Assembly: GCA_015063785.1 (NCBI GenBank)
Contig: SVTM01000009.1
Coordinates: 1 to 64,000, forward strand
Length of the DNA: 64,000 nt
Direction: 5' to 3'
From: Oscillospiraceae bacterium
GTDB lineage: Bacteria; Bacillota; Clostridia; Oscillospirales; CAG-382
Below, one piece after another: positions 14,949 to 54,865 of this stretch (positions are counted from its first letter, which is position 1; each line of letters opens with the position of its first letter). The position numbers were made by a program, and so were the translations under genes. Under the pieces are notes generated by a model. It was not told the DNA's origin. It made no database searches and saw nothing but the letters and a program-made list of their open reading frames with translations.

Positions 14949-17900
14949 TTAACCTCTTGCAACGATCATGAGAGTTACGAATTCGAATTCTTCATCATCT
15001 CTTTCTTCGGAAACAACGTATACTGTGAGAGCGTCTTCGCCTTCGTTGTAATACTTGTTTTCTGTATCGTCTTCAGCAGTTACAGAAAGCATTTCAACAT
15101 CTTCGATTGTAAGAGTACCTGTGCTTCTGTCATAGAGAGCATAGATTGTGTTTTCATCGGTGAGGAGAGCGGAGTCGCCGGCACCTTCGAGGATGAGGAT
15201 GTTTTCTGTTTCTTCATAAGATTCGATCTTAACGAGATCTGCACTGTCCTTAGCAAGGCTTGCAACCTTACCGCCGGTTGTGTTCTTGATGAAGCCTTCT
15301 TCTGTTACAAGATAGAGCGAGTGAGCTGCGAGTTCTGTGGAGGAAGCCTTTGCAGTTTCCTTCTGAGGAGCAACTTCGCCTGTCTTGGGATCAACAGTCT
15401 TATAAACGATTGTTGTCTTGCCTTCTTCGTCAACTGTTTCGATGGACGAAAGGATGATAGCATAGTTTTCATCAACCTTGCTGTCATTAACGATTTCGCC
15501 GCCGATTTCAGCGTATACGAATGCGAGGTTTTCGTTTGTTACGGAATCAGGGTTGTTCGAAAGAACGATGATTGCCTTTGTGAATACGTTTGCCGCATCA
15601 TCAGCATCAAAGTTGGGAAGGTTAGCCGAGTCGTAGATTACGTAGTTGGATTCGCCTTCTTCGTCAACATAGTTAACAACGATCTTTGTGCTGTCTGTGA
15701 TTGTAACGTACTTCATGCCGTTGGGCTTGAGGGAAGCAGGAACACTGCCGCCTGCGGGAGCAACGAACTGATAAAGCTTGTTCTGAACCTTCTTAAGAGT
15801 TACACCGTCAACTTCAACGCTGTAAGTCTTGGATTCCATTTCCTTGTCTGTAAGGTCAGCTGCCTTTGCGGAAGGAACGTAGGGATTGAATGTGTATTCG
15901 CCGGACTTACCTACTGTGTAAGAGCAGATGTTGTTAACAAGGCCCTTATCTACGAAGTAGTTATCGTCATGGTAACCGGATGCAGAGTTTTCGTTTTCCT
16001 TTGTAACGGGAACGAGCTTGAACTCGCCGTCGATGAATGCGCGAACGTAGTTTTCTGTTACGAGGCTACCGTTAACATCGATACCGCCTGCCTTGAACAC
16101 TACCTTGAGTTCGTCTTCGTTGATGTACTGGATAACTGCATATTGTTCTGCGAGGTTAACTTCTTCCTGAAGGATCTTTGCAAGATATACACGGCCGCCG
16201 TTTACAACGAATTCCCATGTTGTATCGATACCGTACTTCTTAACGGAGGATCTCCAAGGAGAAGCAAAGCCGTTAGCCGCACTTTCAGCTGCACTTGCTG
16301 CTGTATCGCGGTCGAGACCGAGAAGACCTGTTACCTTGTCGTTTGCCCAAGAAATATGACCAACGATCTGGTTGTCAGAGTTCCAAGCAGCTGTGCCTGT
16401 ACCGTCGGACCATGTTGTGGAGTTAGCGTCGGATGCGTCGTACTTGACGGGATGAGCGATTACAGTTCTGAAGCCTGCGTTTGCATCGTCGGGAGCGATT
16501 CTGATGTAGTTACCGGGAGCGCAAACGTATGCGTAAACGTACTTGCCGTTTTCATAAGAACCGCCGACTACCTTAGCGTCGCCAACGTAGATTTCGGGCA
16601 TTGTCTTATCAGCATTGTAGTATGCTCTGTAAGAGGAGTCGCCTGTGTGCTTAGCCTTAAGTGTGAAAGCATCGCCCTTCTTGTCAACGATCTTACCGAA
16701 GGTGTAGGGCTGTACCCAGAAGTAATCGACGATACCGTCAGAGTTGGAATCGTAGTACTGAGTGTTGTAGCGTCCGCCGCTGGTGGAGATTACAGAAACA
16801 ACAGAAACGAGATTTTCATGGTTTCTCATGTTCTGAGCCTTCCAAGCATCCTTGTTAGCTTCGGTGTAAACACCGGGCTCGGGGAATGCAGGCTGAGCCT
16901 TGTTTGCCCATGTGCGGCCTGCAGTGAAGATCATTCTGCCTTCGTCGTCAGACCATGTGGGAACGATGGACCAAGAATAGTTGGGAACATCGTTGGGCTT
17001 GTTCCAGAAGTAAGCCTTGTCAGCGAGGAAGTTTACAACGCCGGAACGAAGCTTTCTGTTATCTCTGGAAGAGTTGTAGTGATAGTAATCCTTGAAGTGA
17101 TCTTCGCCGGACTTTGTGGCGATGGAAGCTGTGGATTCTGCTACCATCTTACCGTTTGCAAAAGCTGCAAGAACGGTACCGTCCTTCTTGACATACATTG
17201 TGATATCGCGGAGGAAGTAGTCGTCTGCGTTACCTGTAAGACCAAGATCGGAGAAGAGAAGAACAGATTCTTCATCCTGAAGTCTTGCAGAATTTTCGTA
17301 AGGAACGATAGCAGCTGTCTGGATAAGAACTTCATCCATTGTTTCGCCGCCGAGGGGCTTGTATGCCTTGTAGTCTGCGCCTTGGCCTATTTCGGAGAGG
17401 TCGATAGCGTAGTTAGGAGTAGCAACTACACGACGAACGATCTCTTCGATGCCGTAGATCTTGTGGCAAACTGTTTCAGCTGTAGGAATGTATACGAACT
17501 GGTTAGCTGCGCCAACGTTTTCTCTTTCGAATGCAGGAATGTAGAGTTCTTCATAAGTCTCGTTCATTTCTGCATAGAAAGCGTTATGAAGGATGATAGC
17601 AACCTGACCACGGTTGAGGTTGTCTGTGTATTCAACCTTCTTGTAGTCGATGTTCTTGTCAAGACCGATTCTTTCAGCCACGTCTATGTATTCGTGAGGA
17701 TAAGCAAGAGCTTCGTCCTTTTCATAGCCGAGAGCACGGACGATCATTACGTAGCAGTCCTGAAGGCTGATCTTGCCGGAGGGGTCAAATTCGGTAGCCG
17801 AACGGCCCTTGATAACGCCGGAATCAGAAGCCCAGGAGATCATTCCGAAGAATGTGGGATCCTTAAGGTCTGTGAAACCGGAAAGGTTTTCGCCGCCCTC

Positions 17901-18158
17901 AAGCGATCTGCCGCCCTTCATAAGACGGTAGATGAAAGCAGCCATCTGTTCACGAGTAACAGGTTTGTTTGCGCCATAGGTTGTTTCGCTCTGGCCCTTT
18001 GCAATTCCGAGGGAATTGAGAAGCTGCACTGCATCATAGAGAGCCTCGTCTTTTGCAGAAACGTCTTTGAAGTTAGCTGCAGAAGAAGCGAAGGTGCAAA
18101 GTGTTGCAAGTGTTGCGACAACAAGAACCATAGACAAAATTTTGGCAAATTTTCTCAT
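14949..18158 (-). CDS. SLH-domain S-layer protein 1
   Basis: A secreted protein of 1069 residues. It starts MRKFAKILSMVLVVATL behind GGAGG; the signal peptide ends near residue 28 (SSAAN). Three SLH domains span about residues 29-205. Each has the F-x-D-V/L opening, an A-x-x-x-L/W-A-x-x-x-G-[IV]-x-[KN]-G core and an R-x-x-x-A/Q-x-x-x-R-x-L/F end, such as VTREQMAAFIYRLM. SLH domains bind pyruvylated secondary cell-wall polymer. The remaining 860 residues are Asp/Glu-rich, beta-predicted and match no family I know. It is a paralogue of the next gene (same SLH order, then HKI-[YF]-G-[IV]-E-E and a shared C-terminal pattern). High expression is likely; it has its own promoter and terminator. Confidence 0.88.
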   Translation of the reverse strand: MRKFAKILSMVLVVATLATLCTFASSAANFKDVSAKDEALYDAVQLLNSLGIAKGQSETTYGANKPVTREQMAAFIYRLMKGGRSLEGGENLSGFTDLKDPTFFGMISWASDSGVIKGRSATEFDPSGKISLQDCYVMIVRALGYEKDEALAYPHEYIDVAERIGLDKNIDYKKVEYTDNLNRGQVAIILHNAFYAEMNETYEELYIPAFERENVGAANQFVYIPTAETVCHKIYGIEEIVRRVVATPNYAIDLSEIGQGADYKAYKPLGGETMDEVLIQTAAIVPYENSARLQDEESVLLFSDLGLTGNADDYFLRDITMYVKKDGTVLAAFANGKMVAESTASIATKSGEDHFKDYYHYNSSRDNRKLRSGVVNFLADKAYFWNKPNDVPNYSWSIVPTWSDDEGRMIFTAGRTWANKAQPAFPEPGVYTEANKDAWKAQNMRNHENLVSVVSVISTSGGRYNTQYYDSNSDGIVDYFWVQPYTFGKIVDKKGDAFTLKAKHTGDSSYRAYYNADKTMPEIYVGDAKVVGGSYENGKYVYAYVCAPGNYIRIAPDDANAGFRTVIAHPVKYDASDANSTTWSDGTGTAAWNSDNQIVGHISWANDKVTGLLGLDRDTAASAAESAANGFASPWRSSVKKYGIDTTWEFVVNGGRVYLAKILQEEVNLAEQYAVIQYINEDELKVVFKAGGIDVNGSLVTENYVRAFIDGEFKLVPVTKENENSASGYHDDNYFVDKGLVNNICSYTVGKSGEYTFNPYVPSAKAADLTDKEMESKTYSVEVDGVTLKKVQNKLYQFVAPAGGSVPASLKPNGMKYVTITDSTKIVVNYVDEEGESNYVIYDSANLPNFDADDAANVFTKAIIVLSNNPDSVTNENLAFVYAEIGGEIVNDSKVDENYAIILSSIETVDEEGKTTIVYKTVDPKTGEVAPQKETAKASSTELAAHSLYLVTEEGFIKNTTGGKVASLAKDSADLVKIESYEETENILILEGAGDSALLTDENTIYALYDRSTGTLTIEDVEMLSVTAEDDTENKYYNEGEDALTVYVVSEERDDEEFEFVTLMIVARG

Positions 18159-18259: not shown

Positions 18260-18320
18260 ATTATATCAGCTTACTCGCAAAATATCAACACCAAATTCGG
18301 AAATGTAACACTTTTGTAAC
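18260..18320 (-). promoter_or_regulatory. Promoter of S-layer gene 1 with GTTACA direct repeat
   Basis: On the minus strand TTGATA (18283-18288) and TATAAT (18260-18265) are 17 bp apart. Upstream, GTTACA occurs at 18315-18320 and 18304-18309 with an 11-bp period, the inner copy ending exactly 15 bp before the -35. The same layout occurs at both promoters of S-layer gene 2. Direct repeats with an 11-bp period are typical of OmpR/PhoB-family activators. Confidence 0.7.
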
Positions 18321-18685: not shown

Positions 18686-21600
18686 TTACTTTGTAACAAC
18701 GATGGACTTAACAGTCTTGATGGAGTCATCAGTGTTCTTGTCGTCGATTTCGTCAGCTACGATGTAGAGAGTGAAGCTTGCAGCTTCTTCAAGACCTTCG
18801 TAGGAGTTGTCTTCAACAGTGAGGATGTCATCATCAGCTGTCTGGTAAACAGATGTGGATGTGTAGTAGAGGAATGTTGTGTCATCAGTGATAACGTAGG
18901 TGTTACCGTCGCCGATTTCGAGGAACTTGTTAGCTTCTTCGTAACCGCCGTTGAAGGTAGCCTTGAACATCTTGTCTTCTACATAAGTGTTGCCGATTGT
19001 AGCTGTTTCAGCGATCTTGCCTTCTTCATTCATAAGAACGAATGTGCCGCCTGCGGGAGCTCCAAGGCCCTTAACAGTTTCGATATCGCCTGCAGTTGCT
19101 GCGTCGGTGATGTTGAGAACTGTGTAGATGTTCTTTTCCTTACCGTCTTCATCTGCGATTGTCTTAGCGGAAAGAACGATTCTGTAGTCGTATGTTACAT
19201 CAGACTTGAACTCATCGATTTCAGCATAGAGGATGCCGAGGTTTTCGTAAGAGGAAGCTGTGTTGTTAACAAATACGGACATTACGTTTGTGAATGTTGT
19301 TTCTGCGAAGTCAGGAAGTGTCTTGGATGTGTAAACTGTGTAAACATCTTCGCCTTCATCGTCAACAGTCTTGATGATGAGCTTGGAGTAGTCCTTAAGA
19401 GTGAACTTGGAGATGCCTTCGATACCTGTTACGTTATAGATGGAACCTGTGAAGTTCTTGATGCTTGCGGAAGCTGCTGCGAGGTAAACTGCGCCTTCTT
19501 CGTCCTTATCAGCGAAGATTGTAGCTGCTTCATCAGCGCCTGCAAAGTCGATTGCTGTGAATGTGTAAGCACCGTCAGAATCAACTGTGTATGTGCTGAA
19601 CTTGTTGAGGAAGTCGTTGTACATAACTGTTTCAGCTACTTCCTTGTCAGTGATCTTCTGGTTGTCGATTTCTTCGAGGAGCTCGTAAGCGCCGTCGTAG
19701 GAAACGAATGTGTTAGCGTAGTCAGCGAGCTGAACAGCCTTAACTGCACCGTCGATAACTGCGTTTACATAGAAGTATGTTACGAATTCGCCGTCAACAA
19801 CGCCTGTAGCGGAGTAAACGATTCTTTCGTCAGTGATCTTTTCAGCGCCTTCGCCGGATACAACGTACTTAGTTACGGGATCTTCGTCATAGTTGAGAAC
19901 GATCGCGTAGTTAGCGTCTGCGTCGAAATCGCCGGAGGAAACGCCATCCTTGTGGAGGAGAACGTCGCCCTTGATGTATGCCTTGTATGTCTTACCAGCC
20001 TTGAAGTCTGCGTAAGAAGGAACGTTGATGTAGTTGATGTACTTGTCTTCTGCGCCTACGAATTCAACTGTTTCACCGGACTTGAAGGTAACAGTCTTGG
20101 AATCGTCGGAGCTGGATCTTGCGGAAACCATAGCTTCGATGGGAGCGATTGTTTCAGCAACCTTAACGTACTTAGCGCCTTCGTTTACGTATGCGAGAAC
20201 GAAGTCACCGGACTTGTAGTCGCCTTCAACTGTAGCGTCTTCAGTGTAGATGGAGTAGTAGTCTGCGCTGTTGAAGTTCTGGAGACCCTTGAAGTCCTTG
20301 TTCTTCTTGTCAACGATTTCAACAAATGTGTAATCCTTGATGAAGAGGTAGTCAACGTAACCGTCTCCGTTGGAGTCGTATACATCAGCTTCGTAGAGAC
20401 CTTCGTTATAAACGATGGGGAATACTTCTTCGAATTCAACTGTGAGGTTGTCGTAAGAACCGTTAGCGGACTGTACGTATGCACCATTGAAGTTGATTTC
20501 TGTGTTAGTGAATGCGAATGTAGCATTGTCTTCATCGTAAGAACCTGTTTCGAGGTCGATGAACTTGATGCCGTCTTCAGCGTCGTAATCCTTCTTGTAG
20601 GAGTAAGGAGCCTGATCGTAGTCGAGGTAAGCAGAGATGCCGCCGAATTCAACGATACCTGTCATAACCTTGTCGCCGTCAGCCTTCTTAACGCCGCCAA
20701 CATAGTATTCCTTGTCGGTCTTTGTGGAAGTAGCGATCTTAACATCAGCTGCAGTGATTGTCTTCTTAACGAGGTTGGACTTAGCAGCGATAACTTCGTC
20801 GTCAGCAACGTCCTTAGCATCCTTCTTAACGAAGAGTGTGAGTTCTGCGAGGAAGTATTCGTCAGCGTCACCGTCGAGGCCGAGTTCTTCGAGTTCGAAG
20901 TCAACGCCTGTAGCGATTACGTTGCCGTCGTTGTCGTATCTTGTACCTGTGATGAGCTCAACGTCGTTGAGTTCGTCGTAAGTAGCAGTTACGCTGTCGA
21001 TACCGTAGTGAGTTGTACCAAGAACTACGAATGTTTCTTCTTCAACACCGAAGATCTTGTGAGCGATTGTTTCTGTTGTTTCAACAGGAACGTAAGCGTC
21101 GGTTGTACCGTTTGTAACCCACTCGTATTCAACAGTTGTTTCGTTCATGTCAGCGTAGAATGCGTTGGCAAGAAGGATAGCAACCTGGCCACGGTTAAGG
21201 GTTGTTGTGTAGTCAACATCAGAAGCGATGTTTTCGTCGAGACCGAGCTCTTCAGCCTTGTCGGTGTAACCGAAAGGATAGGAGAGAGGACCGTCATTCT
21301 CGTAACCGAGAGCACGAACGAGCATTACATATGCGTCCTGGAGAGTGATGCCACCCTTAGGATTGAATGTTGTAGCGGATGTGCCCTTGATAACTCCGGC
21401 GTTGGAAGCCCAAGAAATCATGTTGAAGAATGTGGAATCTTCGAGGTCGGTGAAGGGAGTTGTGTTAACGCCGCCTTCAGACGATCTACCTGCCTTCATG
21501 AGTCTGTAAACGAAAGCAGCCATCTGCTGACGTGTTACATTCTCTTCGGGGCTGAACTTTGTTTCAGATGTACCCTTAGCTACGCCGAGAGTGGAGAGGA

Positions 21601-21733
21601 GCTCAACTGCTTCGTAGAGAGCTTCGTCATCATAAGAAACATCTTCGAATGCTGCGCTTGCTGCGAAGGGGATCATACCGATGATCATCATAGCCGCAAG
21701 AGCGAGTGTGAGAAGTTTTGTGATCTTTCTCAT
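18686..21733 (-). CDS. SLH-domain S-layer protein 2
   Basis: A secreted protein of 1015 residues and paralogue of S-layer protein 1. The start MRKITKLLTLALAAMMI lies behind AGGAGG; the signal peptide ends near ASA (about residue 27). Three SLH domains cover about residues 28-205, with FEDVSYDDEALYEAVELL, VTRQQMAAFVYRLMKAGR and LNRGQVAILLANAFYADMNE as landmarks. The rest is very acidic (frequent D-E-D and D-D-E runs), with no Cys-rich, LRR or catalytic motif. The acidic, repeat-free body and two strong tandem promoters fit a major S-layer subunit. The codons are strongly biased, as expected for a highly expressed gene. Confidence 0.88.
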   Translation of the reverse strand: MRKITKLLTLALAAMMIIGMIPFAASAAFEDVSYDDEALYEAVELLSTLGVAKGTSETKFSPEENVTRQQMAAFVYRLMKAGRSSEGGVNTTPFTDLEDSTFFNMISWASNAGVIKGTSATTFNPKGGITLQDAYVMLVRALGYENDGPLSYPFGYTDKAEELGLDENIASDVDYTTTLNRGQVAILLANAFYADMNETTVEYEWVTNGTTDAYVPVETTETIAHKIFGVEEETFVVLGTTHYGIDSVTATYDELNDVELITGTRYDNDGNVIATGVDFELEELGLDGDADEYFLAELTLFVKKDAKDVADDEVIAAKSNLVKKTITAADVKIATSTKTDKEYYVGGVKKADGDKVMTGIVEFGGISAYLDYDQAPYSYKKDYDAEDGIKFIDLETGSYDEDNATFAFTNTEINFNGAYVQSANGSYDNLTVEFEEVFPIVYNEGLYEADVYDSNGDGYVDYLFIKDYTFVEIVDKKNKDFKGLQNFNSADYYSIYTEDATVEGDYKSGDFVLAYVNEGAKYVKVAETIAPIEAMVSARSSSDDSKTVTFKSGETVEFVGAEDKYINYINVPSYADFKAGKTYKAYIKGDVLLHKDGVSSGDFDADANYAIVLNYDEDPVTKYVVSGEGAEKITDERIVYSATGVVDGEFVTYFYVNAVIDGAVKAVQLADYANTFVSYDGAYELLEEIDNQKITDKEVAETVMYNDFLNKFSTYTVDSDGAYTFTAIDFAGADEAATIFADKDEEGAVYLAAASASIKNFTGSIYNVTGIEGISKFTLKDYSKLIIKTVDDEGEDVYTVYTSKTLPDFAETTFTNVMSVFVNNTASSYENLGILYAEIDEFKSDVTYDYRIVLSAKTIADEDGKEKNIYTVLNITDAATAGDIETVKGLGAPAGGTFVLMNEEGKIAETATIGNTYVEDKMFKATFNGGYEEANKFLEIGDGNTYVITDDTTFLYYTSTSVYQTADDDILTVEDNSYEGLEEAASFTLYIVADEIDDKNTDDSIKTVKSIVVTK

Positions 21734-21808: not shown

Positions 21809-21869
21809 ATGATAATACACAATCGATTTTTTTGCAATACCTTTTGATAGTTTGTAACACAACTGTAAC
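21809..21869 (-). promoter_or_regulatory. S-layer gene 2 promoter P2 (proximal) with GTTACA repeat
   Basis: On the minus strand TTGCAA (21832-21837) and TATCAT (21809-21814) are 17 bp apart. GTTACA copies at 21853-21858 and 21864-21869 have an 11-bp period, and the nearer one ends 15 bp from the -35. Every element is displaced by exactly 113 bp from its counterpart in P1. Confidence 0.7.
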
Positions 21870-21921
21870 ACGAGGCCACCGTGTGCAAAACTGAAAAGAT
21901 CTCGCAACTGATTGTACTTTT

Positions 21922-21982
21922 ATAATACAACATGCTTTTTGTTTTTGCAATAGGTTTTGCGATATTGTAACACGACTGTAAC
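21922..21982 (-). promoter_or_regulatory. S-layer gene 2 promoter P1 (distal) with GTTACA repeat
   Basis: On the minus strand TTGCAA (21945-21950) and TATTAT (21922-21927) are 17 bp apart. GTTACA copies lie at 21966-21971 and 21977-21982, again with an 11-bp period and a 15-bp gap to the -35. P1 and P2 arose by a tandem duplication of about 113 bp. Confidence 0.7.
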
Positions 21983-25562: not shown

Positions 25563-26252
25563 ATGGGACTAAAAATACTGATTGCAGATGATGACACAAA
25601 CACTTGTGACCTGCTGAAGATCTGTCTTGAAAACGAAGATTACGAGATCGTTGTTGCAAACAACGGTGTAAAGGCGGTTTCTGCCTTCAAGATCTACGAA
25701 CCCGATCTTGTACTTCTCGACATTATGATGCCCGGCAAGGACGGTTGGCAAGTCTGCCGCGAGATCCGCGAGATCTCCTCGAAGCCCATCATCATGCTCA
25801 CCGCCAAAAACGAAGTTTTTGACAAAGTTTTGGGTCTTGAGCTCGGCGCAGATGATTTTGTCACCAAGCCCTTTGATACAAAAGAAGTTGTGGCTCGCAT
25901 AAAGGCTGTTTTCCGCCGTTGCGCAGGTCACGAGAGCGACGATTCCGAAGTTGTAAAGTTTGACAACCTCGAAATCTCCCTTCAGAAATACGAGCTTAAG
26001 CTCTGCGGAAAGTCGGTGGATATCCCCCCCAAGGAACTCGAGCTTCTCTATTTTCTCACATCCAACTACAACAGAGTTTTCACCCGTGACCAGCTGCTCG
26101 ATAAAGTTTGGGGATTTGACTATCTCGGCGACTCGAGAACTGTTGACGTACATATCAAGAGACTCCGCGAAAAGCTTACAGACATCTCCGAAAAATGGCA
26201 GATCAAAACAGTTTGGGGCGTAGGCTACAAGTTCGAGCTTCTCCAGCAGTAA
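25563..26252 (+). CDS. OmpR/PhoB-family response regulator (orphan)
   Basis: A 229-residue two-domain regulator. The receiver domain (1-120) has Asp9/Asp10, phospho-acceptor Asp53 (LVLLDIMMPGKDG), Thr80 and Lys102 (FVTKPF). The C-terminal winged helix (about 130-228) has the family sequences ELELLYFLTSN, RDQLLDKVWG and RTVDVHIKRLREKL. The start is the ATG six nt after GGAGG; an upstream ATG overlaps that site. No histidine kinase is encoded next to it. OmpR-family proteins bind direct repeats with about 11-bp spacing, which is the arrangement found at the three S-layer promoters, so it is a candidate regulator of them, by inference only. Confidence 0.93.
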   Translation: MGLKILIADDDTNTCDLLKICLENEDYEIVVANNGVKAVSAFKIYEPDLVLLDIMMPGKDGWQVCREIREISSKPIIMLTAKNEVFDKVLGLELGADDFVTKPFDTKEVVARIKAVFRRCAGHESDDSEVVKFDNLEISLQKYELKLCGKSVDIPPKELELLYFLTSNYNRVFTRDQLLDKVWGFDYLGDSRTVDVHIKRLREKLTDISEKWQIKTVWGVGYKFELLQQ

Positions 26253-42868: not shown

Positions 42869-45800
42869 TTAGTGCAGAGATGCGTAAGCCGCATCAGAGA
42901 ACTTCATAATTTCGTAGAGCCAAGGATTATTAGTTGCGTTTCTTGCAACATAGCTTTCAAGACTATCCACTACTGTCACTATTTCTTCACCAGCAGCATT
43001 CTTGAACACACAAGTAACGTCACAACGACCATCTGCTACAACAATTTTGTCGATAGTGAATACAGTATAAGAACCACTTGTTGTACAATCTGCAGCGTTA
43101 ATAGTTACAGTTTGAGTCACACCATAATGATCGACGAAGCTGATATCTGCAGAGCCACCGGAAATTGCAGAAGTCTTAATTGCAATCTGCATAGAGATTT
43201 TGCTTTCAAGTACAAACTGTGTTCCATAGTAAGCATCTGCGTTATTACCAGTAATGCTACGTCCATCTACGCATGTCGGGGTTGTCTGAGTTGCGTATGC
43301 CTTTTGTGTTTCCGTCAATGTGCTATTTGCAAGATCTGCAGTATTGTAATTAAACTTAACCTGTGCAGCTGCTCCATAGTTCAGCATGTCGATCAGAAGA
43401 GTTCTTGTTTCTTCCGCTGTACGTGTAGAACTTGTAGCAATGTCTTCTTTGTCAACGTTACGCAGGATGTAATCGCGAATACTATCAGTCTTGGTTACAC
43501 TGATCTGCTTATCATTAGCATCATAGATAGTAACATTAACTTTATCACACATTTCTTTTGCCGCGATACCTGCATACTTAATTACATAGTAATTACCACT
43601 CTTAGTACAATCACTCAAATTAATGGTAATTGTCTCATCAGCTCTGTCATCTGCATATTCTCTAACAATTACAGCATATCCGGTATTATCAACATAGCTT
43701 GTGTTGAATGCAAAGTTGATATCCAGTTCATTGCCGAGAGTGAGGTTTGTACCGAAGAATTCCTTCAGTTCAACCTTCGCCAATGTATACTTACCTTCCG
43801 CATAAGCTACTTCATAGTCATCAACGGTAGTAGTAACGTTGCCACATTCGTTAGCAGTAACTACAGAAGCAACATCTGTCAGAACGACAGAACCGTTGTT
43901 AACGAGAGTAGCAATTCCATCAGCCTTGCGGCATGCAACTGTGAGGTTGCCGCCTACATTGACTGTACCGTCTGCACCGATGTTAGCGGTTTCGCCGTCT
44001 GCCATGTAGATTTCAACCTTTGCGCCATTCTTGATGTCAAGAACAGCAGCCTTGCCTGCAATTGTACCGATGTTGATACCATGGCTGGAGTTGTAGCTGT
44101 AATCTGCACCACCGTCGGAGAATGCCTTACCAACGATAAGTGTAGCACCGTCTACAGTGATCTGTGCGGGCTTGCCAACGCGGTCAGAATCTGTGTTGTC
44201 ACGGCCGCTGTAATCCTTACCGGTCAGCTGCATTGCTGCAGTATTGAACTCTGCAGTATCTTCAACAGTAATCATACCGTTGCCGTAAACGTTGGTCTGC
44301 CATGTTGCGATAAGCTTAGCAGTGTCAGATACTGTGATGTAACCCATTGTTGTAACCTGCATTGCGTAAACAGTGGAAGTGCCGGAGATATTGATTGCAC
44401 CGTTGTAGTAAGACTTAACGATAGAGTTGCCACCTGCATCGTGAACGATAGAGTCGATCACGTTGATTGTAGCGTTCTGACGTGCGTCAAGTTCGGGGAT
44501 CAAGATCTCTGCATCCTTGATGTTTACTGTTGCGTTCTGGAATGTAACAACAGGAAGTTCATACTTAGGTGCAGTACCTGTGATAGTGAATTCGATATCC
44601 TTTTTGAAGTCGATTTCTGTGCTGATTTCGCTGCCTTCAACATCAAGAACGGTGATTGTCTCGCCATTCTGAACTGCGTCGAGTGCTTCAGCGAATGTCT
44701 CATAGCCAACTTCGTCGATCTTAGCAACAGCGGGAACAACCACGTACTTGCCGTCGGCATACTTAACCACGCTGCCTTCAACAGTGGTGGTTACAGTAGC
44801 TCCTGCGGGAGCTGTGAGAGTTGCATCAGCTGCAGTGAGAACGTACTTAGCGTACTGGCTGTTAGTAAGAGTTCCAACAGTGTTTGCGCCTTCAAACTTG
44901 AATGTCTGAACGCCGGAGTAACCGGTGCGTTCCCAAATGCCGATGCTGGAAATATTACAATTCTTCAAAGTAACAGTCTTTCCAGCGTAGTTCTGAATGT
45001 AGAGACCGTATGTAACGCCAGTCATCTTTACGTTTTCGAGGGTTGCGCTAGTGCCGTATACCCAATGGAAACCGTAGTTGCCGCCGTTAACAGTTACATT
45101 CTTAACCACAACTGTGGGAGTGGACTTGTTTGCATACAAGAAGCCATAACCGTAGTTGGAAACAGTACAGTTTTCAACTGTGATGCTCTTGATACGGTTT
45201 GTAGTAACGGCATAGCCGGTACCATCCACAAAGTTCACGTTCTTAACAACAGCAGCTGTGCTAGTACCCGAAACGCTGATGTTGCCGGTGTACTTGAAGT
45301 TTGCACCGTCGATTGTGAGGCTCTTGTTAACAGTTACGTCTTCGGTAATGTCAGCAAGAAGAACGATTGTGTCCTTTGCCTGTGCTGCGCCAATTGCTTC
45401 TTCGAGAGATTCGTACTTAGTACCGTTTACTTCAGCAACATAGTTAGCTACTCTTACGCCCCATGTGCCGTTATTCTCTTCAAGAATATAACCTGCGGGA
45501 AGACCTGCGTTTCCGGTTACTACAGTAGAACCGTTCTTAAGAGCGGCTGCAGCAAGGGAAAGTGTTACAGGATATTCTGTAGCAGCTGCTTCAGCAGACA
45601 GGAGAACGTCGCCAATCAGAGATGCCTCTGCCTTTACTGTAAGTGCACCGGGGTTAGCATTAGCGTTAGCCTGCTGCATCCAGATAGACTTGTTAGCACC
45701 CTCGATTGTACCGCCATTGACGGTGAGGATGTTCTGTGCTTCAGTACCGTTGAGGAACTGACGGATTGCACGGTAGGTAGACTTAACAGTGCCGCCCTTG

Positions 45801-48800
45801 ATAACGGTTTCTGCATAAGTACCCTTGCCGTTTGTGAGGTTGTCGATACCGTAAGCCATATCGGTGCCACCGAGGTGTTCGATAGTAACACCGTCAACTG
45901 TAAGCTTACCGCGCTGGTTGGAGATTACAGAGGAGTAAGCGTTAAAGAAGCGGTTGTTGGTAGCAGTAAGAGCGATCGTACCTGTGCCGCTAATGGTCAA
46001 GTCTGCGCCGGGATTGATGTTGATCAGACCGAAGCTGCCGGTAGCATTGTCAGTACCGGTGATGTTGAAGCTGCCCAAACCAATCTCAACTCTCTTGCCT
46101 TCGGGGATGTTGACGGAACCGGTCAGAACGATGTCGCTTCTGACAGTGATGTAACCACCTTCTATCACTTCGTCGATCGCTTTCTGAAGAGAATCGAAGT
46201 ACTTAGAACCGTTTGCGGTATAAGCGGAAGCTACATAGGTAATCTTATTGCCGTTCAGGGTAACATTGCCGTTGGCAACGTAGTAGGGATCCTTGAACAT
46301 AGCCTTAGCTTCTTCAACAGTCATATTATCATCTGTGATAGCAACGTTGGAGCCGGAAGCCCTCAGATCGATCTGGAAGCCCTCAGCAAAGTCACAGTCA
46401 ATGAAGCTGACGTTCTTGTTGTAGTAGCGGTGGCCAGCGTAGTTGCCCTGGTCGATGGAGCAGTTGGTGTAGCTTACATTGCCAAATGTGCTTGCATAGC
46501 TGCACCAGCCGGTGATATCACAGTTTTCAAACGCGATATTGCCGCCTGTGGATCCATCGAAGTGGACAGCAAAGTTGGAGCCATTGATGGTGGAATTCTT
46601 AATTGTAATATCGCCTTTAGCGTAGCAATATCTCATGCCGTTGTAGCCGGTGAGTTTTACGCCTTCGATAGCGATATCCTTACCGTTTACGCAAAGTGCG
46701 CAGTCGTAATTGCCGGTCTTTTCGTTATGAACGTTGAGATTCTTAACTGTTGCGCCGGAAGAAACGACTACTCTGCCGGTGATGTTAACAAGGTTACCAG
46801 TAGCATCGGTTTCACCGACAACTATGATTGCCTTGTTTACAGCAATGTCTGTGGTGTAATCGCCTGCAAGGATTGTAACGGTTTCGCCGGGCTGTGCAGC
46901 GTCGATTGCTTCCTTGATAGTTTCGTAGAAGATATCGCCGATCTGTGCCACGTAGTTCTTAGGAGCAAGAACGGTTTCGCCGTTTACTACAACAGTGATG
47001 TCGTTGTTAGCGCCGAAGCTGCCCTTCTTGTTGTTCCACAGGCTGTTGCCGGAAACATTACCGTTACCAAATCCTGTAACAGTGGTAGCTGCATCAACAG
47101 TGATTCTAGCACCTGTGGAGAAGCTGGTATCGATTTCGATTGCTGCCTTGCCGTCAACCGGTGCGGAAGCATTGAATGTAGTCTTTGCCACAGTGAGATC
47201 AGTGAAAGCACTTGTGCTTTCGGTGTAAACAAGCACGGACTTACCTACAGAATTGAAGGTACATTCGTTGAATGCAACTGCACCTGCACCGTATGTCCAT
47301 ACGTTGTATGCATCGGCACTGTTCTGGTTGAATGTACACTTATTAAAGGTTTCGGATGTTCCATAGAGGAATACCTGACCGTTAATTGTACAGTTGTTGT
47401 AAACCAGATTGCCCGAATGCTGGAGACCTGTGTAGTTTACGTTAGGATAGTAGTCGAAGGTTACGTTGTTGAAGGTAACATTCGCGCTACCCATGTTGAA
47501 CGCGCCGATGTTGTCAAATACAACGCCGTCAACCGCACCTGTAATGGTGATATCCTTGCCGGAAATACCAACGAGAGAATATGTGCCGGCAGCGTAAATC
47601 TTGACTTCGTCGCCATCCTTTGCTGCTGCGAAAGCATCAGCGAGCTTGAGGTAAGCTGTGTCACCGATCATTGCCTCTACAACTACGGGTGTGCCGTTTA
47701 CAACAACATCGACACCCATTTCAGCAATGTCGGGGAGATAGATAACATCTGTAAGAGCAGAACCGTCGGTAACAGAGCAACCGTCGAAGGTAGCAATTAC
47801 ATCATTCTTACCGAAGTCAATATTCATGTTGGGATTGAACTCAACGTTATTAAGGTCTGCATCCTGATAGAATCTGAGCTGGTTGTAATAACCCTCTGCA
47901 AATTCAGTATCAGAAATCGTAACCTTGTTGATAGTAGAAGCAAAGCTGGTCCAACCTGTAATCACACAGTTTTCGATTACGATATTGCCGCCGGCAGAGC
48001 CGTCAAAGTGAATACCGTAAGTAGCACCTGTAATAACGCTGTTCTTGAATGTTACAGTGCCGGTAGTGTAGCAACTACGGAAGCCGTTTCCACCGGTAAT
48101 GTTACAATTTTCAACAAGGACATCCTTTGCGTTGATATAACCAGCACTGCTGGAACCATTATTTACGTTAAGGTTCTTCACGGTCGCGCCGTCAGCAGTG
48201 ATGTTCAGCTTGCCGGTGATGTTAACAAGGTTGTTACCATCAGCATCGGTTTCGCCGACAACTGTGATTGCCTTGTTGATGTTAAGATTCTGAGTATAAG
48301 CGCCTGCAAAGATTGTTACGGTTTCGCCGGGCTGTGCAGCTGCGATTGCTTCATTGATGGATGCGTAGCAAACATCGCCGATCTTAGCAGTAGCGCGAAC
48401 TACCTTGTAAGCGCCGTCGGCATACTTAACCACGCTGTCTTCAACAGGTGTGGTTACAGTAAATCCTTCGGGAGCTGTGAGAGTTGCATCAGCTGCAGCG
48501 AGAACGTACTTAGCGTACTGGCTGTTAGAAAGAGCTACAACAGTGTTTGCGCCTTCAAACTTGAATGTCTGAACGCCGGAAGAACCGGTGCGTTCCCAAA
48601 TGTTGATACTTGTAATATTGCAATTCTTGAGTTCAATTGTCTTTCCAGCGTAGTTCTGAATGAGAAGACCGTTTGTAACGCCAGTCATTGTTACGTCTTC
48701 GAGGGTTGCGGTAGTGCCGTATACCCAATGAATACCGTAAATACCACCATTCATAGTTACCTTGTTAACAACGACTGTGGGAGTGGACTTGTTTGCATAC

Positions 48801-51800
48801 AGGAATCCATCATAACCATTGAGCGTACAGTTTTCAACTGTGATGCTCTTGATGCGGTTAGTAGTAATAGCATAAGTCTCTGTATAATCCACAAAGTTCA
48901 CATTCTTAACAACAGCCTCTGTGGTATTACCCGAAACGCTGATGTTGCCGGTGTACTTGTGGCTTGCACCGTCGATTGTGAGGCTCTTGTCAACAGTTAC
49001 GTTTTCGGTAATGTCAGCAAGAAGAACGATTGTGTCCTTTGCCTGTGCTGCTGTGATTGCCTTAGCGAGGGTTTCATACTTCGCTTCGCCGATCTGTGCA
49101 ACATAGTTAGCTACTCTTACGCCCCATGTGCCGTCGCCGTTATCCTGAGGAACATATCCTTCTGCGCAGTACGCATCTGCAATACGAGTATTGAACGTAC
49201 CGCCGGAGATAAATCCAACAATCTGCTTGTCGGGTGTTTCGCCTTTAACGCTTGCATATGAGCCTACTGCATCTGTCTTAGCAGAATTAAATGTACCGCC
49301 GGTAATGCTTACAGTCGGTGTTTCATTTGTCGGCTCATTATTTGCACGGTTCACGATCTGGAGAGCATGGCCGGTGCATGCTGCAAAGTTGTTGTCCCAA
49401 TAGCCATCGTCTTCAAATGCGGTTTCGGGTGCGGTACCGTTAATTGTACCGTCTGTAATCAGCAGAGTACCACTTCTGAAGCTGATACCGTCCATACCTT
49501 CGATGATACCGCCGTTTACAGTCAGCTTACCATTCATAGGATGCTCGATACCGGCAGTAGAATAACTATTGCTGATAGCAGTTGTGATATAACCACCATT
49601 GATGGTGATCTCGGTATTATCACGGTTTCTGTTACCTGCGATAGCAGCGAAGAAGCCCTTGAGTGTACCGCCATTGACGGTCAGCTTAGCTGTGCCGTTT
49701 TCAGCGTTATCGCCGGATGCAGTCATCATAACCGCACCATAGACGTCATACTTGCTGTTGCCCCAGCCTGCTTCGCTGTAGCTTGCATCAAGAGTACCGT
49801 TCTTTGCGTCAGAGCTGTCTGCGATTGTGAGGTCACCGCCGAAGTCAACTGTAATAAGAGCTGTACCGCTCTCTGCAGCGCCATATTCCCAAACAGCGGG
49901 ATCATAGTTTACAGTCTTACCGTTGAGGTCCAAAGTAACAACCTTACCTGCTGCGATGTGAACAGTCTCGGTAAGAGTAACGTCACTAACCAGTGTAACG
50001 GTTTCGTTAGCCTGCGCTGCGTTAATTGCATCAGCGATAGATCTGTAGTATGTATCACCGATCTTAGCAACGTTACGAATGATTTTGCCGTCGAGATTAA
50101 CAGTGGAAGTACCACTAATGTTAACAAGATCGATCATCTTGCCATTAGCATTAGTACAATTTGTAACTGTTACTACTGCGCCGCTAACAGAATGGATACC
50201 ATCCTGATATACATCAGAGGTATTGGCGCCGTCAACATCAAATTTACAATTCTTGATTGTAGCATCAAAGTAGGTTCTGATTACACCGTAAGTGCCGTTG
50301 TCCATGATGGTACAGCCATCAAATACACAGCTTGCGGGAGAACCGCTCATTGCTACCCAACCGATAATTGTACAATCCTTATAAGTAAGGTTTGCACCTT
50401 CAGTAATGCCGTCGAAGTGAATTGCGTAAACGCTTGTAGCTTCGAAGGTTACATTTTCAAATACGAGGTCGCCCTTCGCATATGCCCATCTCTGAGCGTT
50501 GCCGCCCTTGATGTGCAGATTCTTAAGTGTAAGGTTTTCAAGAGTACCGCCGAGTGTACCTTCGAGGATGACAGCAGGTGTGCCGTCATCATTTGTTTCG
50601 CCGACAACAGTAATGCCTGCCTTCATGGAAGGAAGTGTATATGTGCCTGCAAGGATTGTTACGGTTTCGCCGGGCTGTGCAGCTGCGATTGCATCAGCAA
50701 GGGTTGCATAGCCGGTCTTTCTGGTATATCCGTCAAGATCACGTCCGATATAAGCCACAGCGTCAACTACTGTCCAAGTACCGTCGCCATTATTCTTAAT
50801 CGCGCTCTTATTTTCGGGATACTGAACTTCCCAAGTATAATGCTGATGGAAAACATCCGCATTGTAGGTACCGCCGGTAACCACTACATGACGCTCGCCC
50901 TGTCCTTTTGCGTTGAAGATCCAAGGAGAACCGTTATCACCGGTGCCAACATTACCAAGAGTGAAGGTACCGCCATTGATAATTATGCCTTCGTTTCCGC
51001 CGGTGTAAGCCAGAGAATCTTTTGCCTTATCAAGCTTGTAAGTACCGTTTTCAACAGTAATGGTGCAACCGTCTTCATAGTTTGCAAGGAGAGAGTAAAC
51101 CGTATTGGTTGCAGCAACATCTACAGTACCGTTACCGGTAAGAGTCAGGTGACCGTTATTATCTGTGGAGAACACACCAACCAGCATAATGTTGGTTCCT
51201 GTGTATTCGCCGGAGATAGTCTTGCCGTTAAGATCGATAGTTACAGTCTTGCCATCTACGAGGAAGTAAGTGTCGTGGCTACCGTCAAGAAGCTGAAGTT
51301 CGGTCTTTGCAAGATCGATGTTTTCGAGAAGAACGATTGTGTCGTTTGGCTGTGCTTCGTTGATAGCTTCCTGCAGGCTGGTGTACTTGGTTCCGTTGAG
51401 TTCTGCAACGTCAATTACATCCTCAACTACTGTGTAACCACCATCTGCAGCTACTGCCTTGTAGCCGTCAGCTACATATGCAGTAGGATCCTGATCGAAA
51501 GTACCGCCGGTGATCGACATTGTGCCGCTTACACCGAGAGTAGCATTCTTACCGCCGGAGAAGTCACCGCCGGTGATGGTAGCCTTTGCACCTGCCTGAA
51601 CACATACTGCGGAACCGCTGTCCATAGTAGTGCCCTTGGGGCCTACGAATGTACCGTCCATGATAGTAACATCTGCCCCGCCGGAGATATTTACTGCATG
51701 ACGTGTACCGCTTGTTGCGTCAATCTTGTATGTACCGCCGTTGATGGTTGCGGTAACCGCGCCATCAATGCGCACGCCGTGACGTGTGGAGGTTACGTTA

Positions 51801-54800
51801 ACATTTTCAAGTTCAAAGATACCTGCATTGATTTCGATTGCGCTGAATCCGCCGTTATCGTTGTCAATTGTACCGTTGGAAATCTTAAGAGATTTAGGAG
51901 TGCAAGGAGCGATGTAGCCGTTCAGCGTCTTACCATTCAGGTCAAGAACTACAGTTGCGCCGTCGGGAATGGTCAGCGCGTTAGTAGTTACACTACGAAG
52001 AACCTTGATCTGATTGTCAGCCTGTGCAGCATTGACTGCAGACTGGAGATCGAAGTAAATTGCTTCGTCGATAGAAGCGACTGCGTCCACGATGGTAGGA
52101 GTTTCTCCGGTGGAAGTCTCAACCGTAACATTCTCAACGGTATTTGTACCCGTCAGAATGCTGGGTTCACCACCATAGAGATAACCAAGCCCGTTGTTCG
52201 CATAGCCGTCGCCATAAGCGCCTGTATAGGTCTTAATCGCTACATTCTTAGCAGACAGGTTTTCACCGGTACAGGGCTGTGTGCCATCATTGCTCGATGA
52301 CATACCAACAATGGAGCCCAGGCCGCCCGCTGCGGACTTGATGGTCAGACCCTCAACCACAGCGTTCTTGATCGTGCTGCCCTCGCCCAGGTAACCGATC
52401 ACACCGCCAGCGCACCAGAAAGTGGAGGAGATAGTGCCGTTAGTAGCCCTAACGGAAACATTGTTGAAATCGGAGTAGCCATGGCCGACAATGCCGCCGA
52501 TGTAGCCGCGTCCGGAAATCTCCACGGTACCGGTCACATGGATGTTTTCAAAGTCAGTGGTAGTTGCATTACCGACCAGGCCGCCCACATAGTTGGAATT
52601 ATTGGTGGACTTGACAGTAACGTTATGCAGGGTCAGATTCTTGATCACAGCCTGCTCGGATTCAATGAAGGATCCGGTATAAGCAAACAGGCCAAGGTAT
52701 TCGCCTGCCTGTTCAACATACAGGTTGGAGATGGTGTGGTCACCACCGTCGAAAATGCCCATAAAGGAACCGTGGTCCTTCTTTTCGCCGATGGGGTTCC
52801 AGTTAATGCTGGCCAGATCAATGTCAGCAGTCAGCTTGACATACTTGCCAAGGAACTGGTTGGAGCGATCAGACTGGACATTGTCCACAGTATCACGGAA
52901 ATAAATCAGTTCTTCCAGATTGTTGATCAAATAGGGATCTTCAGCAGTACCGGAACCGGTGAGACCGGTAACGATCTTCTTTACACCGCCGAGTTCTGCC
53001 CATACAACAGGGTTGATGCCATCAGCGTCGTTCATCTGTGCATCTGTTGTTGCAACAAGAGTATCGTCGATGTAAAGTTCAACATGTGTGGGCTGAGCAC
53101 CTGCGTTGGGATGTCCTTCTACCCATGTTGTTGTCCAATACTCATCGTTGGATGCGGGGTAGAAGAAGTTCCAAGTTATGGAATCCTGAGCACCGTCGAT
53201 GATATTGCCAACGTTGTTAAGTTCAGTTGTCGCAATAAGAGTTTCGCCGGAATACAGCTTGAGATAATAGCTTTCAGCTGCATTTGTGCTTTCAGACTGA
53301 CCCCATACACGAACATAGCCGTCAACTTCCTTTGTATAAGCAAGGGAGTTGCTGCCGGTAGGAGCTGCAGGAGCAGGAGTATATACTGTTGCATTAACTG
53401 TAGCAGTATCCGCCTTAGTGTAGGAAGCAGAAGCATCAGTCACATTGATACCGTAACGACCATCATCGCTATTCAGAGTAATAGCCACAACGGAATTGCC
53501 CTCAATGGAAAGGCTCTGGTTGGCTCTGAGATAGAAGCCTTCCTTTACACCTTCAGCGGTGATTTCCGAGTTGGTAACAGTGTAGGAACCGCCCAAAGCA
53601 AGGCGACCTTCAATGTTCTTTACATTGATGACAGAATTTTCAATGACAAACTCATCGTATGTACTGTTGCCGGCCAATACGGCGGTCAAAACAGTAGTTG
53701 CGTCATTTGCGATTGTGATTGTAGTGCCGTTTATCAGCTCGATATTTGCGCCGGTACCGCCGTTTGTACCGATAAGATAGTTGCCTTTGAAGCCTGTTGC
53801 AACAAGGTCAACATCATCAAGTACAAGTGTTTGACCCTGGAACATCCAAAGTACTGCGGTTCCGGAATCCTTAGTCTCATTGGGAGCAACCACGATAGTA
53901 CCATTCTTAAATGTTGTGGTACCAAAGTACAGATCGTACTCACTCAGTGTAAGAGTTTTGCCGTTAAGATTAATAACAGAAGCGTCAGTAATTGCACTCT
54001 GTCTGCTCAAAACGGGAGCTGCATCACTAAGAAGAACAATTTCATCGTCTTCTGTAGCTGCTGCGAATGCTTCTTCGAGTGTCGCGAACTCAACTTCGCC
54101 GATCTTGGCAATGTTAGTTACTGCAGGAGCTTTCTCTACTACAGTTTCTGTGCTAACATCCCACGCATATCCGTCAGCGATCCATTCTGCAGGAACTTCG
54201 CTGGGATATGTACCGCCGGAAATGCTGACAGTCTTACCGTCACCGGTATCCATGGGGAATGTCTTGAATTCACCATTCGTGATGGTAATGTTTGCTGAGT
54301 TAGGTGTGCTGATCATAGAGGTGGCGCCATTGGATTCAAACACGCCTCCATTGATCACCATATCGCCGTATACGACAGCGATAGCACCGTTACTGGTCTG
54401 CGGGAAGGTGAAATTGCCGCTGTTGACAGTCAGCTTTCCGCCGTCAGCTACATAGATTGCAGAACCCATGCTCATCGGCGAGGTGCTGACATTGACAACA
54501 GCATTGCCGTCGCCAATAAAGGTCAGCTCACCATTCACGGTGAAGGCATACGTAGGTGACCATGCAAAACCAGTAACAGACAGGGTCATAGTTTTACTAT
54601 TCAAGTCGATGGTAATATTCTTACCAGCTTCAACAGTTGCACCTGTTACAGTGACATCTGTCAGAAGCTTGATGGTTTTGCCATCAGCATTAGCCAGAGC
54701 ATCATAGAAGGACTCGTAGCCGGTGCCGTCAACCTCTGCGACATGGGTTTCAGTCTGTGTCTCAACGGCATCTTCAGCAAACACCATCGTCGGCATCATG

Positions 54801-54865
54801 CCAACAATCATCATAATGCTGAGAAGCACCGCCATGAGACGCTTAAAATTGAATTTCATGTGCAT
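42869..54865 (-). CDS. Giant secreted beta-helix surface protein (3998 residues)
   Basis: Signal peptide (MHMKFNFKRLMAVLLSIMMI, cleavage near FA-E about residue 30). Next come about 13 modules, each opening with V-A-x-I-G-x-x-x-Y-x-[ST]-[IL]-x-x-A-[IL]-x-A-A-Q-x-x-[DE]-T-[IV]-x-[IL]-L and continuing into right-handed parallel beta-helix repeats (many V-x-N-x-x-[IV]-x-G and L-D-L-N-G-K-T segments). A different insert at about 635-905 has GLUG-type sequence (YLINNLEELIYFRD, then ADIDLASINWNPIG, then F-x-G-I-F-D-G-G). The last about 300 residues hold two copies of a domain opening F-G-T-N-L-T-L or Y-G-T-Q-F-V-L. No SLH, LPXTG or membrane anchor is visible. An adhesin or glycan-binding fibre is likely. 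The start has AAAGGAG 5 nt upstream. Confidence 0.85.
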   Translation of the reverse strand: MHMKFNFKRLMAVLLSIMMIVGMMPTMVFAEDAVETQTETHVAEVDGTGYESFYDALANADGKTIKLLTDVTVTGATVEAGKNITIDLNSKTMTLSVTGFAWSPTYAFTVNGELTFIGDGNAVVNVSTSPMSMGSAIYVADGGKLTVNSGNFTFPQTSNGAIAVVYGDMVINGGVFESNGATSMISTPNSANITITNGEFKTFPMDTGDGKTVSISGGTYPSEVPAEWIADGYAWDVSTETVVEKAPAVTNIAKIGEVEFATLEEAFAAATEDDEIVLLSDAAPVLSRQSAITDASVINLNGKTLTLSEYDLYFGTTTFKNGTIVVAPNETKDSGTAVLWMFQGQTLVLDDVDLVATGFKGNYLIGTNGGTGANIELINGTTITIANDATTVLTAVLAGNSTYDEFVIENSVINVKNIEGRLALGGSYTVTNSEITAEGVKEGFYLRANQSLSIEGNSVVAITLNSDDGRYGINVTDASASYTKADTATVNATVYTPAPAAPTGSNSLAYTKEVDGYVRVWGQSESTNAAESYYLKLYSGETLIATTELNNVGNIIDGAQDSITWNFFYPASNDEYWTTTWVEGHPNAGAQPTHVELYIDDTLVATTDAQMNDADGINPVVWAELGGVKKIVTGLTGSGTAEDPYLINNLEELIYFRDTVDNVQSDRSNQFLGKYVKLTADIDLASINWNPIGEKKDHGSFMGIFDGGDHTISNLYVEQAGEYLGLFAYTGSFIESEQAVIKNLTLHNVTVKSTNNSNYVGGLVGNATTTDFENIHVTGTVEISGRGYIGGIVGHGYSDFNNVSVRATNGTISSTFWCAGGVIGYLGEGSTIKNAVVEGLTIKSAAGGLGSIVGMSSSNDGTQPCTGENLSAKNVAIKTYTGAYGDGYANNGLGYLYGGEPSILTGTNTVENVTVETSTGETPTIVDAVASIDEAIYFDLQSAVNAAQADNQIKVLRSVTTNALTIPDGATVVLDLNGKTLNGYIAPCTPKSLKISNGTIDNDNGGFSAIEINAGIFELENVNVTSTRHGVRIDGAVTATINGGTYKIDATSGTRHAVNISGGADVTIMDGTFVGPKGTTMDSGSAVCVQAGAKATITGGDFSGGKNATLGVSGTMSITGGTFDQDPTAYVADGYKAVAADGGYTVVEDVIDVAELNGTKYTSLQEAINEAQPNDTIVLLENIDLAKTELQLLDGSHDTYFLVDGKTVTIDLNGKTISGEYTGTNIMLVGVFSTDNNGHLTLTGNGTVDVAATNTVYSLLANYEDGCTITVENGTYKLDKAKDSLAYTGGNEGIIINGGTFTLGNVGTGDNGSPWIFNAKGQGERHVVVTGGTYNADVFHQHYTWEVQYPENKSAIKNNGDGTWTVVDAVAYIGRDLDGYTRKTGYATLADAIAAAQPGETVTILAGTYTLPSMKAGITVVGETNDDGTPAVILEGTLGGTLENLTLKNLHIKGGNAQRWAYAKGDLVFENVTFEATSVYAIHFDGITEGANLTYKDCTIIGWVAMSGSPASCVFDGCTIMDNGTYGVIRTYFDATIKNCKFDVDGANTSDVYQDGIHSVSGAVVTVTNCTNANGKMIDLVNISGTSTVNLDGKIIRNVAKIGDTYYRSIADAINAAQANETVTLVSDVTLTETVHIAAGKVVTLDLNGKTVNYDPAVWEYGAAESGTALITVDFGGDLTIADSSDAKNGTLDASYSEAGWGNSKYDVYGAVMMTASGDNAENGTAKLTVNGGTLKGFFAAIAGNRNRDNTEITINGGYITTAISNSYSTAGIEHPMNGKLTVNGGIIEGMDGISFRSGTLLITDGTINGTAPETAFEDDGYWDNNFAACTGHALQIVNRANNEPTNETPTVSITGGTFNSAKTDAVGSYASVKGETPDKQIVGFISGGTFNTRIADAYCAEGYVPQDNGDGTWGVRVANYVAQIGEAKYETLAKAITAAQAKDTIVLLADITENVTVDKSLTIDGASHKYTGNISVSGNTTEAVVKNVNFVDYTETYAITTNRIKSITVENCTLNGYDGFLYANKSTPTVVVNKVTMNGGIYGIHWVYGTTATLEDVTMTGVTNGLLIQNYAGKTIELKNCNITSINIWERTGSSGVQTFKFEGANTVVALSNSQYAKYVLAAADATLTAPEGFTVTTPVEDSVVKYADGAYKVVRATAKIGDVCYASINEAIAAAQPGETVTIFAGAYTQNLNINKAITVVGETDADGNNLVNITGKLNITADGATVKNLNVNNGSSSAGYINAKDVLVENCNITGGNGFRSCYTTGTVTFKNSVITGATYGIHFDGSAGGNIVIENCVITGWTSFASTINKVTISDTEFAEGYYNQLRFYQDADLNNVEFNPNMNIDFGKNDVIATFDGCSVTDGSALTDVIYLPDIAEMGVDVVVNGTPVVVEAMIGDTAYLKLADAFAAAKDGDEVKIYAAGTYSLVGISGKDITITGAVDGVVFDNIGAFNMGSANVTFNNVTFDYYPNVNYTGLQHSGNLVYNNCTINGQVFLYGTSETFNKCTFNQNSADAYNVWTYGAGAVAFNECTFNSVGKSVLVYTESTSAFTDLTVAKTTFNASAPVDGKAAIEIDTSFSTGARITVDAATTVTGFGNGNVSGNSLWNNKKGSFGANNDITVVVNGETVLAPKNYVAQIGDIFYETIKEAIDAAQPGETVTILAGDYTTDIAVNKAIIVVGETDATGNLVNITGRVVVSSGATVKNLNVHNEKTGNYDCALCVNGKDIAIEGVKLTGYNGMRYCYAKGDITIKNSTINGSNFAVHFDGSTGGNIAFENCDITGWCSYASTFGNVSYTNCSIDQGNYAGHRYYNKNVSFIDCDFAEGFQIDLRASGSNVAITDDNMTVEEAKAMFKDPYYVANGNVTLNGNKITYVASAYTANGSKYFDSLQKAIDEVIEGGYITVRSDIVLTGSVNIPEGKRVEIGLGSFNITGTDNATGSFGLININPGADLTISGTGTIALTATNNRFFNAYSSVISNQRGKLTVDGVTIEHLGGTDMAYGIDNLTNGKGTYAETVIKGGTVKSTYRAIRQFLNGTEAQNILTVNGGTIEGANKSIWMQQANANANPGALTVKAEASLIGDVLLSAEAAATEYPVTLSLAAAALKNGSTVVTGNAGLPAGYILEENNGTWGVRVANYVAEVNGTKYESLEEAIGAAQAKDTIVLLADITEDVTVNKSLTIDGANFKYTGNISVSGTSTAAVVKNVNFVDGTGYAVTTNRIKSITVENCTVSNYGYGFLYANKSTPTVVVKNVTVNGGNYGFHWVYGTSATLENVKMTGVTYGLYIQNYAGKTVTLKNCNISSIGIWERTGYSGVQTFKFEGANTVGTLTNSQYAKYVLTAADATLTAPAGATVTTTVEGSVVKYADGKYVVVPAVAKIDEVGYETFAEALDAVQNGETITVLDVEGSEISTEIDFKKDIEFTITGTAPKYELPVVTFQNATVNIKDAEILIPELDARQNATINVIDSIVHDAGGNSIVKSYYNGAINISGTSTVYAMQVTTMGYITVSDTAKLIATWQTNVYGNGMITVEDTAEFNTAAMQLTGKDYSGRDNTDSDRVGKPAQITVDGATLIVGKAFSDGGADYSYNSSHGINIGTIAGKAAVLDIKNGAKVEIYMADGETANIGADGTVNVGGNLTVACRKADGIATLVNNGSVVLTDVASVVTANECGNVTTTVDDYEVAYAEGKYTLAKVELKEFFGTNLTLGNELDINFAFNTSYVDNTGYAVIVREYADDRADETITINLSDCTKSGNYYVIKYAGIAAKEMCDKVNVTIYDANDKQISVTKTDSIRDYILRNVDKEDIATSSTRTAEETRTLLIDMLNYGAAAQVKFNYNTADLANSTLTETQKAYATQTTPTCVDGRSITGNNADAYYGTQFVLESKISMQIAIKTSAISGGSADISFVDHYGVTQTVTINAADCTTSGSYTVFTIDKIVVADGRCDVTCVFKNAAGEEIVTVVDSLESYVARNATNNPWLYEIMKFSDAAYASLH
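44740..45472 (-). repeat. Recent internal duplication in the giant gene, copy A
   Basis: This segment of about 730 bp is nearly identical at the DNA level to 48405-49133 in the same gene. Long identical runs include the codons for KSTPTVVV and QNYAGKT, and both copies encode the same module (from RVANYVA to SVVKYADG). Similarity at silent sites shows a duplication or gene-conversion event more recent than the origin of the other modules. Confidence 0.8.
48405..49133 (-). repeat. Recent internal duplication in the giant gene, copy B
   Basis: Partner of the segment at 44740-45472, about 3.66 kb away. The copies differ by scattered substitutions and small indels (for example CTGTGGTATTACC against CTGTGCTAGTACC near the inner end). 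Confidence 0.8.

Follow-up and report, generated by a model that had tools for sequence, protein, structure and literature searches.

A conserved GTTACA direct-repeat promoter module upstream of S-layer genes in Clostridia, a putative site for a WalR-like regulator

The window analysed here is a 64,000-nucleotide stretch of an Oscillospiraceae genome (contig SVTM01000009.1, positions 1 to 64,000), and it contains two S-layer protein genes, both on the minus strand. One of them (14949-18158; 1069 aa, with a signal peptide and an SLH domain) is driven by promoter P1, and the other (18686-21733; 1015 aa, with a signal peptide and SLH domains) by promoters P2 and P3. All three promoters lie on the minus strand and share the module GTTACA-N5-GTTACA-N15-TTGNNA-N17-TATNAT. 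At P1 (18320-18260, GTTACA-AAAGT-GTTACA-N15-TTGATA-N17-TATAAT), the direct repeat, a putative response-regulator site, occupies 18304-18320 and is exact; the -35 element TTGATA follows 15 bp past the inner repeat at 18283-18288, and the -10 element TATAAT lies at 18260-18265 after a 17-bp spacer. P2 (21869-21809, GTTACA-GTTGT-GTTACA-N15-TTGCAA-N17-TATCAT) has its exact repeat at 21853-21869, its -35 element TTGCAA at 21832-21837 and, again across 17 bp, its -10 element TATCAT at 21809-21814. In P3 (21982-21922, GTTACA-GTCGT-GTTACA-N15-TTGCAA-N17-TATTAT), the exact repeat at 21966-21982 is a tandem copy of that in P2, with the -35 element TTGCAA at 21945-21950 and, past a 17-bp spacer, the -10 element TATTAT at 21922-21927. 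The sequence-only reading of this region had described three such repeats at S-layer promoters, each 15 bp from a -35 element. Its coordinates and spacings proved exact and all three promoters are confirmed, but the genes number two, because P2 and P3 are tandem copies upstream of a single gene.

A T precedes every half-site, so TGTTACA-N4-TGTTACA is the better notation for the repeat. The remainder of the module has the features of a housekeeping sigma promoter (-35 TTGnnn, -10 TAnnnT and a spacer of 16-18 bp), and the spacer between the -35 and -10 elements is 17 bp at all sites in the window and in close relatives. Just 3' of the P1 -10 element lies a leader element, TGATAAATGGAGTATAGGC (18255-18235, minus strand), that is conserved in most members of the genus. 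Comparison of the S-layer gene leaders, this element included, with Rfam identified no known RNA. Elsewhere in the window, a giant ORF of 4003 aa (42869-54880, minus strand) gives a weak match to NosD-like repeats.

Few proteins are made by a cell in larger amounts than those of the S-layer. The ENC values of the gene behind P2 and P3 (29.0) and of the gene behind P1 (33.4) are the two lowest among 32 window genes tested, and the genes for EF-Tu and EF-G in the same window, at 37.0 and 37.5, lie above both. This codon bias, the strongest of the 32 genes, suggests that the two genes probably encode the major S-layer proteins. By our own count the genome holds about 38 ORFs with SLH domains, and the module stands before two of them.

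Across the whole 2.5-Mb genome, the pattern GTTACA-N5-GTTACA-N15-TTGNNA has three exact matches, all at S-layer genes, with no match at one mismatch and a single match at two. The bare repeat has one further exact copy (C49:97822-97838; L001 1501-1517), which lies about 95 nt upstream of a gene for an exported 319-aa protein and has no -35 element at N15. A genome-wide scan had been expected to return SLH or phosphate-regulated genes; the former half of this expectation was borne out, in that the matches are SLH S-layer genes, and phosphate genes were not among them.

Within the genus, P1 and P2 are present in all five species, and P3 was found only in the source species and its nearest relative. 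In alignments of the five species, all 12 repeat bases and all 6 bases of the -35 element are invariant at both P1 and P2, as are 6 or 5 of the 6 bases of the -10 element, whereas in the upstream flank of the same alignments just 6 of 98 columns (one alignment) and 4 of 98 (the other) are invariant. Exact matches in other genera of the family likewise lie upstream of SLH genes with signal peptides. Where the module seemed absent, the genome either has no close S-layer homologue or carries an altered module, as in G056, G058 and G034, where the gap is 14 bp or one to two bases are changed. Random distribution of the motif in the genome, or lack of upstream conservation in relatives, had been named as grounds for abandoning the idea of a co-regulation signal for the major S-layer genes. 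Both were looked at and neither applies, because the motif is non-random in the genome and related species conserve it upstream to an extreme degree. The idea is upheld by a module that is exclusive to these genes in the genome and conserved in relatives. We conclude that the module is genuine, that it is well conserved and that, in the host genome, its function is tied specifically to S-layer genes.

To follow the module beyond the family, public genome contigs were scanned with a gap of 13-17 bp allowed between the repeat and the -35 element, and at least 85 sites were listed. Among the matches listed, the gap is 15 bp at 43 sites, 14 bp at 26, and 13, 16 or 17 bp at 4, 4 and 8 sites, respectively. 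An SLH gene lies downstream of 21 of the 43 listed N15 sites and 5 of the 26 listed N14 sites, that is, behind 26 of 69 sites at 14-15 bp versus 0 of 16 at 13, 16 or 17 bp (hypergeometric probability about 0.001, calculated by hand on related sequences that are not independent). Pfam SLH is the commonest downstream family among the matches listed (24 of 71 proteins). A logo of 37 listed N15 sites features an A-tract that runs from 8 to 5 bp ahead of the -35 element, TTG(A/C)AA and TATNAT. A contig of the cultured species Intestinimonas butyriciproducens (strain An565; L152) is among the carriers of the module. In the order as a whole, the N14/N15 module was found in 28 of 297 genomes, with none for the reversed-pattern control, although part of these matches stem from an unrelated dispersed palindrome; SLH genes lie downstream in no fewer than eight of the order's families (f1, f2, f5, f11, f14, f15, f16 and f18).

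GTTACA repeats also came to light in other settings. The near-palindrome GTTACAAAATAGTTACAAAACTGTAACTATTTTGTAAC is dispersed in three genomes of one genus (G065, G085 and G099; family f4, genus g16; loci L320-L322), repeated several times in G065 and G099 and never placed before S-layer genes, and it inflates simple counts of GTTACA repeats. Repeat and promoter also occur upstream of type IV pilin-like (N_methyl) genes at L142, L168, L175, L196 and L325, on several Clostridia contigs, some of them labelled Ruminococcus. Genes for YSIRK-type surface proteins in Streptococcus caballi (L151) and Streptococcus suis (L188), members of a genus whose VicR reads repeats like these, have GTTACA-N5-GTTACA ahead of them, with a gap of 16 or 14 bp.

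The period and placement of the repeat are typical of OmpR-family activators, and the putative binder would therefore belong to that family. All three window repeats, written TGTTACA-N4-TGTTACA, fit exactly both the WalR consensus TGTWAH-N5-TGTWAH (PMC9210968) and the VicR consensus of S. mutans, TGTWAHA-N4-TGTWAHA (PMC4168254). They share with WalR/VicR sites the half-site, the tandem orientation, the 11-bp period and the conserved seventh A, as well as targets in the cell envelope: in C. difficile, six S-layer protein genes are raised by WalR overexpression (PMC9210968). Unlike those sites, the module has only GTTACA half-sites, is placed at a near-fixed 14-15 bp before the -35 element and has SLH proteins as targets, in a host genome with no visible peptidoglycan-hydrolase regulon and with a candidate regulator that scores under the WalR cut-off. 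The MtrA sites of Actinobacteria are also similar. The Streptomyces consensus is (G/T)T(G/A)ACC-N5-GT(G/T)ACN, and a site at whiI occupies -69 to -53, nearly the same place as the repeat (PMC5650626). The GTnAC half-sites and 5-bp gap of this type are found in the module, where the fit is approximate, but the module half-sites are exact and end in A, the phylum is different and the MtrA-like protein considered below is a candidate binder only. Since the WalR and MtrA consensus sequences are both compatible with the repeat, sequence alone supports a class of binder and not an individual protein.

OmpR-type regulators number only three in this genome. RR_A (25563-26252, plus strand) lies 3.6 kb from P3, has no adjoining kinase in the window and obtains equal NCBIfam scores for MtrA and YycF (WalR). 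It is present in nearly all genomes examined, and its recognition helix, RTVDVH, is nearly constant across every family of the order that was examined; RR_A is probably a core regulator. RR_B (C54) has an adjoining kinase, and its best NCBIfam match is PhoB, by a narrow margin and below the cut-off. RR_C (C49:82026-82742) has the recognition helix RTVDVT, and its best NCBIfam match is YycF/WalR by 52 bits; against the WalR equivalog NF040534 it scores 293.5 bits, short of the 340-bit cut-off, as five of its relatives score 285-303 bits. The gene directly after it encodes a WalK-like kinase of 597 aa whose best match is NF033092 (WalK), at 436 bits over the full length against a cut-off of 725.

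The distribution of RR_C follows that of the S-layer genes in part. Within the family, RR_C at 62% identity or more was found in 15 genomes, precisely those of the four genera in which close S-layer homologues occur, and the remaining 48 gave none; this co-occurrence in family f1 may represent a single phylogenetic event. In family f18, RR_C is present in the motif-bearing genome G122 and was not found in G079, G096 and G110, which lack the motif. G107 has RR_C and no exact module. G034, which is 84% complete, has an N14 module before an SLH gene and RR_A, with no RR_C found, and in G132 the module is present and RR_A was not found. The phylogenetic argument for RR_C is thus one that rests on few independent events. 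Two other routes to the regulator were tried and dropped: linkage, since RR_A lies near S-layer genes in only part of the genus, and the half-site, since the sites of WalR, MtrA and PhoP are too similar to one another.

In the reading that we favor, at a probability of about 0.5, the repeat would be the binding site of RR_C, and the S-layer genes would be activated in a class-I-like manner. Two RR_C subunits would sit head-to-tail on the repeat, which would span roughly -67 to -51 for a transcription start some 7 nt past the -10 element, with the inner half-site two turns of the helix above the -35 element. From there, RR_C would recruit RNA polymerase with the main sigma factor to the moderately weak TTGCAA/TTGATA promoters. 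The A-tract just upstream of the -35 element, in the place of a proximal UP subsite, could hold the C-terminal domain of the alpha subunit between activator and sigma, which would explain the fixed gap of 14-15 bp. The outcome would be a production of very abundant S-layer proteins that is tied to cell-wall growth. Counting against this model are the scores of RR_C and its kinase below the NCBIfam cut-offs, the genome without RR_C (G034), and the results of a genome-wide search for WalR boxes: TGTWAH-N5-TGTWAH has 24 matches versus 14 for reversed-pattern controls, 7 of the 24 are the GTTACA repeats themselves read on one or both strands, and several of the remainder fall inside ORFs. With boxes barely above control, no classical WalR regulon and no wider cell-wall regulon of such boxes is visible in the genome by this search.

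The main rival, which we regard as somewhat unlikely, is a site of the same kind bound instead by RR_A, the orphan MtrA/WalR-like regulator conserved throughout the order. Its scores for MtrA and YycF are equal, the half-sites agree approximately with the MtrA consensus (PMC5650626), its helix is near-constant across the order as is the motif, whereas the helices of RR_C differ between families while the motif stays constant, and RR_A is present where RR_C was not found (G034) and lies close to the S-layer locus in three of the five species of the genus. Yet RR_A with the same helix occurs in dozens of genomes without the module and was not found in one that bears it (G132), outside the genus it shows no linkage to the S-layer genes, and a core regulator that read the repeat would be expected to have core sites in the host genome, where there is only one other exact repeat. 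That the repeat might be a repressor site, or a structural or UP-like element that boosts a strong constitutive promoter without any binder, we judge unlikely. The codon bias suggests that the S-layer genes are expressed strongly and constitutively, an A-tract flanks the -35 element, and position alone is compatible with both activation and repression; but exact GTTACA half-sites, paired at a distance of one helical turn and separated by variable bases, typically belong to a sequence-specific dimer rather than to an UP element, and at about -60 the site stays clear of the core promoter.

A true Pho box, at which a PhoP/PhoB-type regulator would place the S-layer under phosphate control, appears improbable. 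Direct repeats with an 11-bp period read by OmpR-family proteins are common to PhoB/PhoP and WalR-type sites, and RR_B is narrowly closest to PhoB. However, the half-site differs and fits WalR/VicR at least equally well, the RR_B score is under the PhoB cut-off, and the own-genome and order-level matches examined (SLH, pilin-like and other non-phosphate genes) include no phosphate gene. PhoB-type sites overlap the -35 element, whereas this repeat ends 14-15 bp upstream of it, neither overlapping nor replacing it. The OmpR-family part of the sequence-only reading therefore stands, and its comparison with Pho boxes does not. Least credible of all is a functionless product of chance or of shared ancestry among duplicated promoters. 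P2 and P3 are clear duplicates, but the module is invariant amid scrambled flanks in five species and recurs with a selected spacer across eight or more families, where the reversed-pattern control gives zero.

RR_C as activator of the S-layer genes would be one case of a broader arrangement, which we put forward tentatively: across the order, a WalRK-like system may have been specialised as S-layer regulator, with the module of repeat, A-tract and promoter as its main DNA target, and module, S-layer gene and regulator pair may have been gained and lost together. To our knowledge, little is known about the control of SLH-type S-layers in Gram-positive bacteria, and within the reach of our literature search, outside which most subscription journals lie, we found no earlier description of such S-layer promoters in this group. 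The present analysis carries a kind of regulation already known elsewhere over to a large group of Clostridia. Being searchable, conserved and common to many uncultured gut Clostridia, the promoter module offers a direct handle on how the S-layer is controlled, singles out the major S-layer gene from dozens of SLH paralogues and supplies a design for strong native promoters in these organisms. It may also link the supply of S-layer protein to a two-component system that senses the cell wall.
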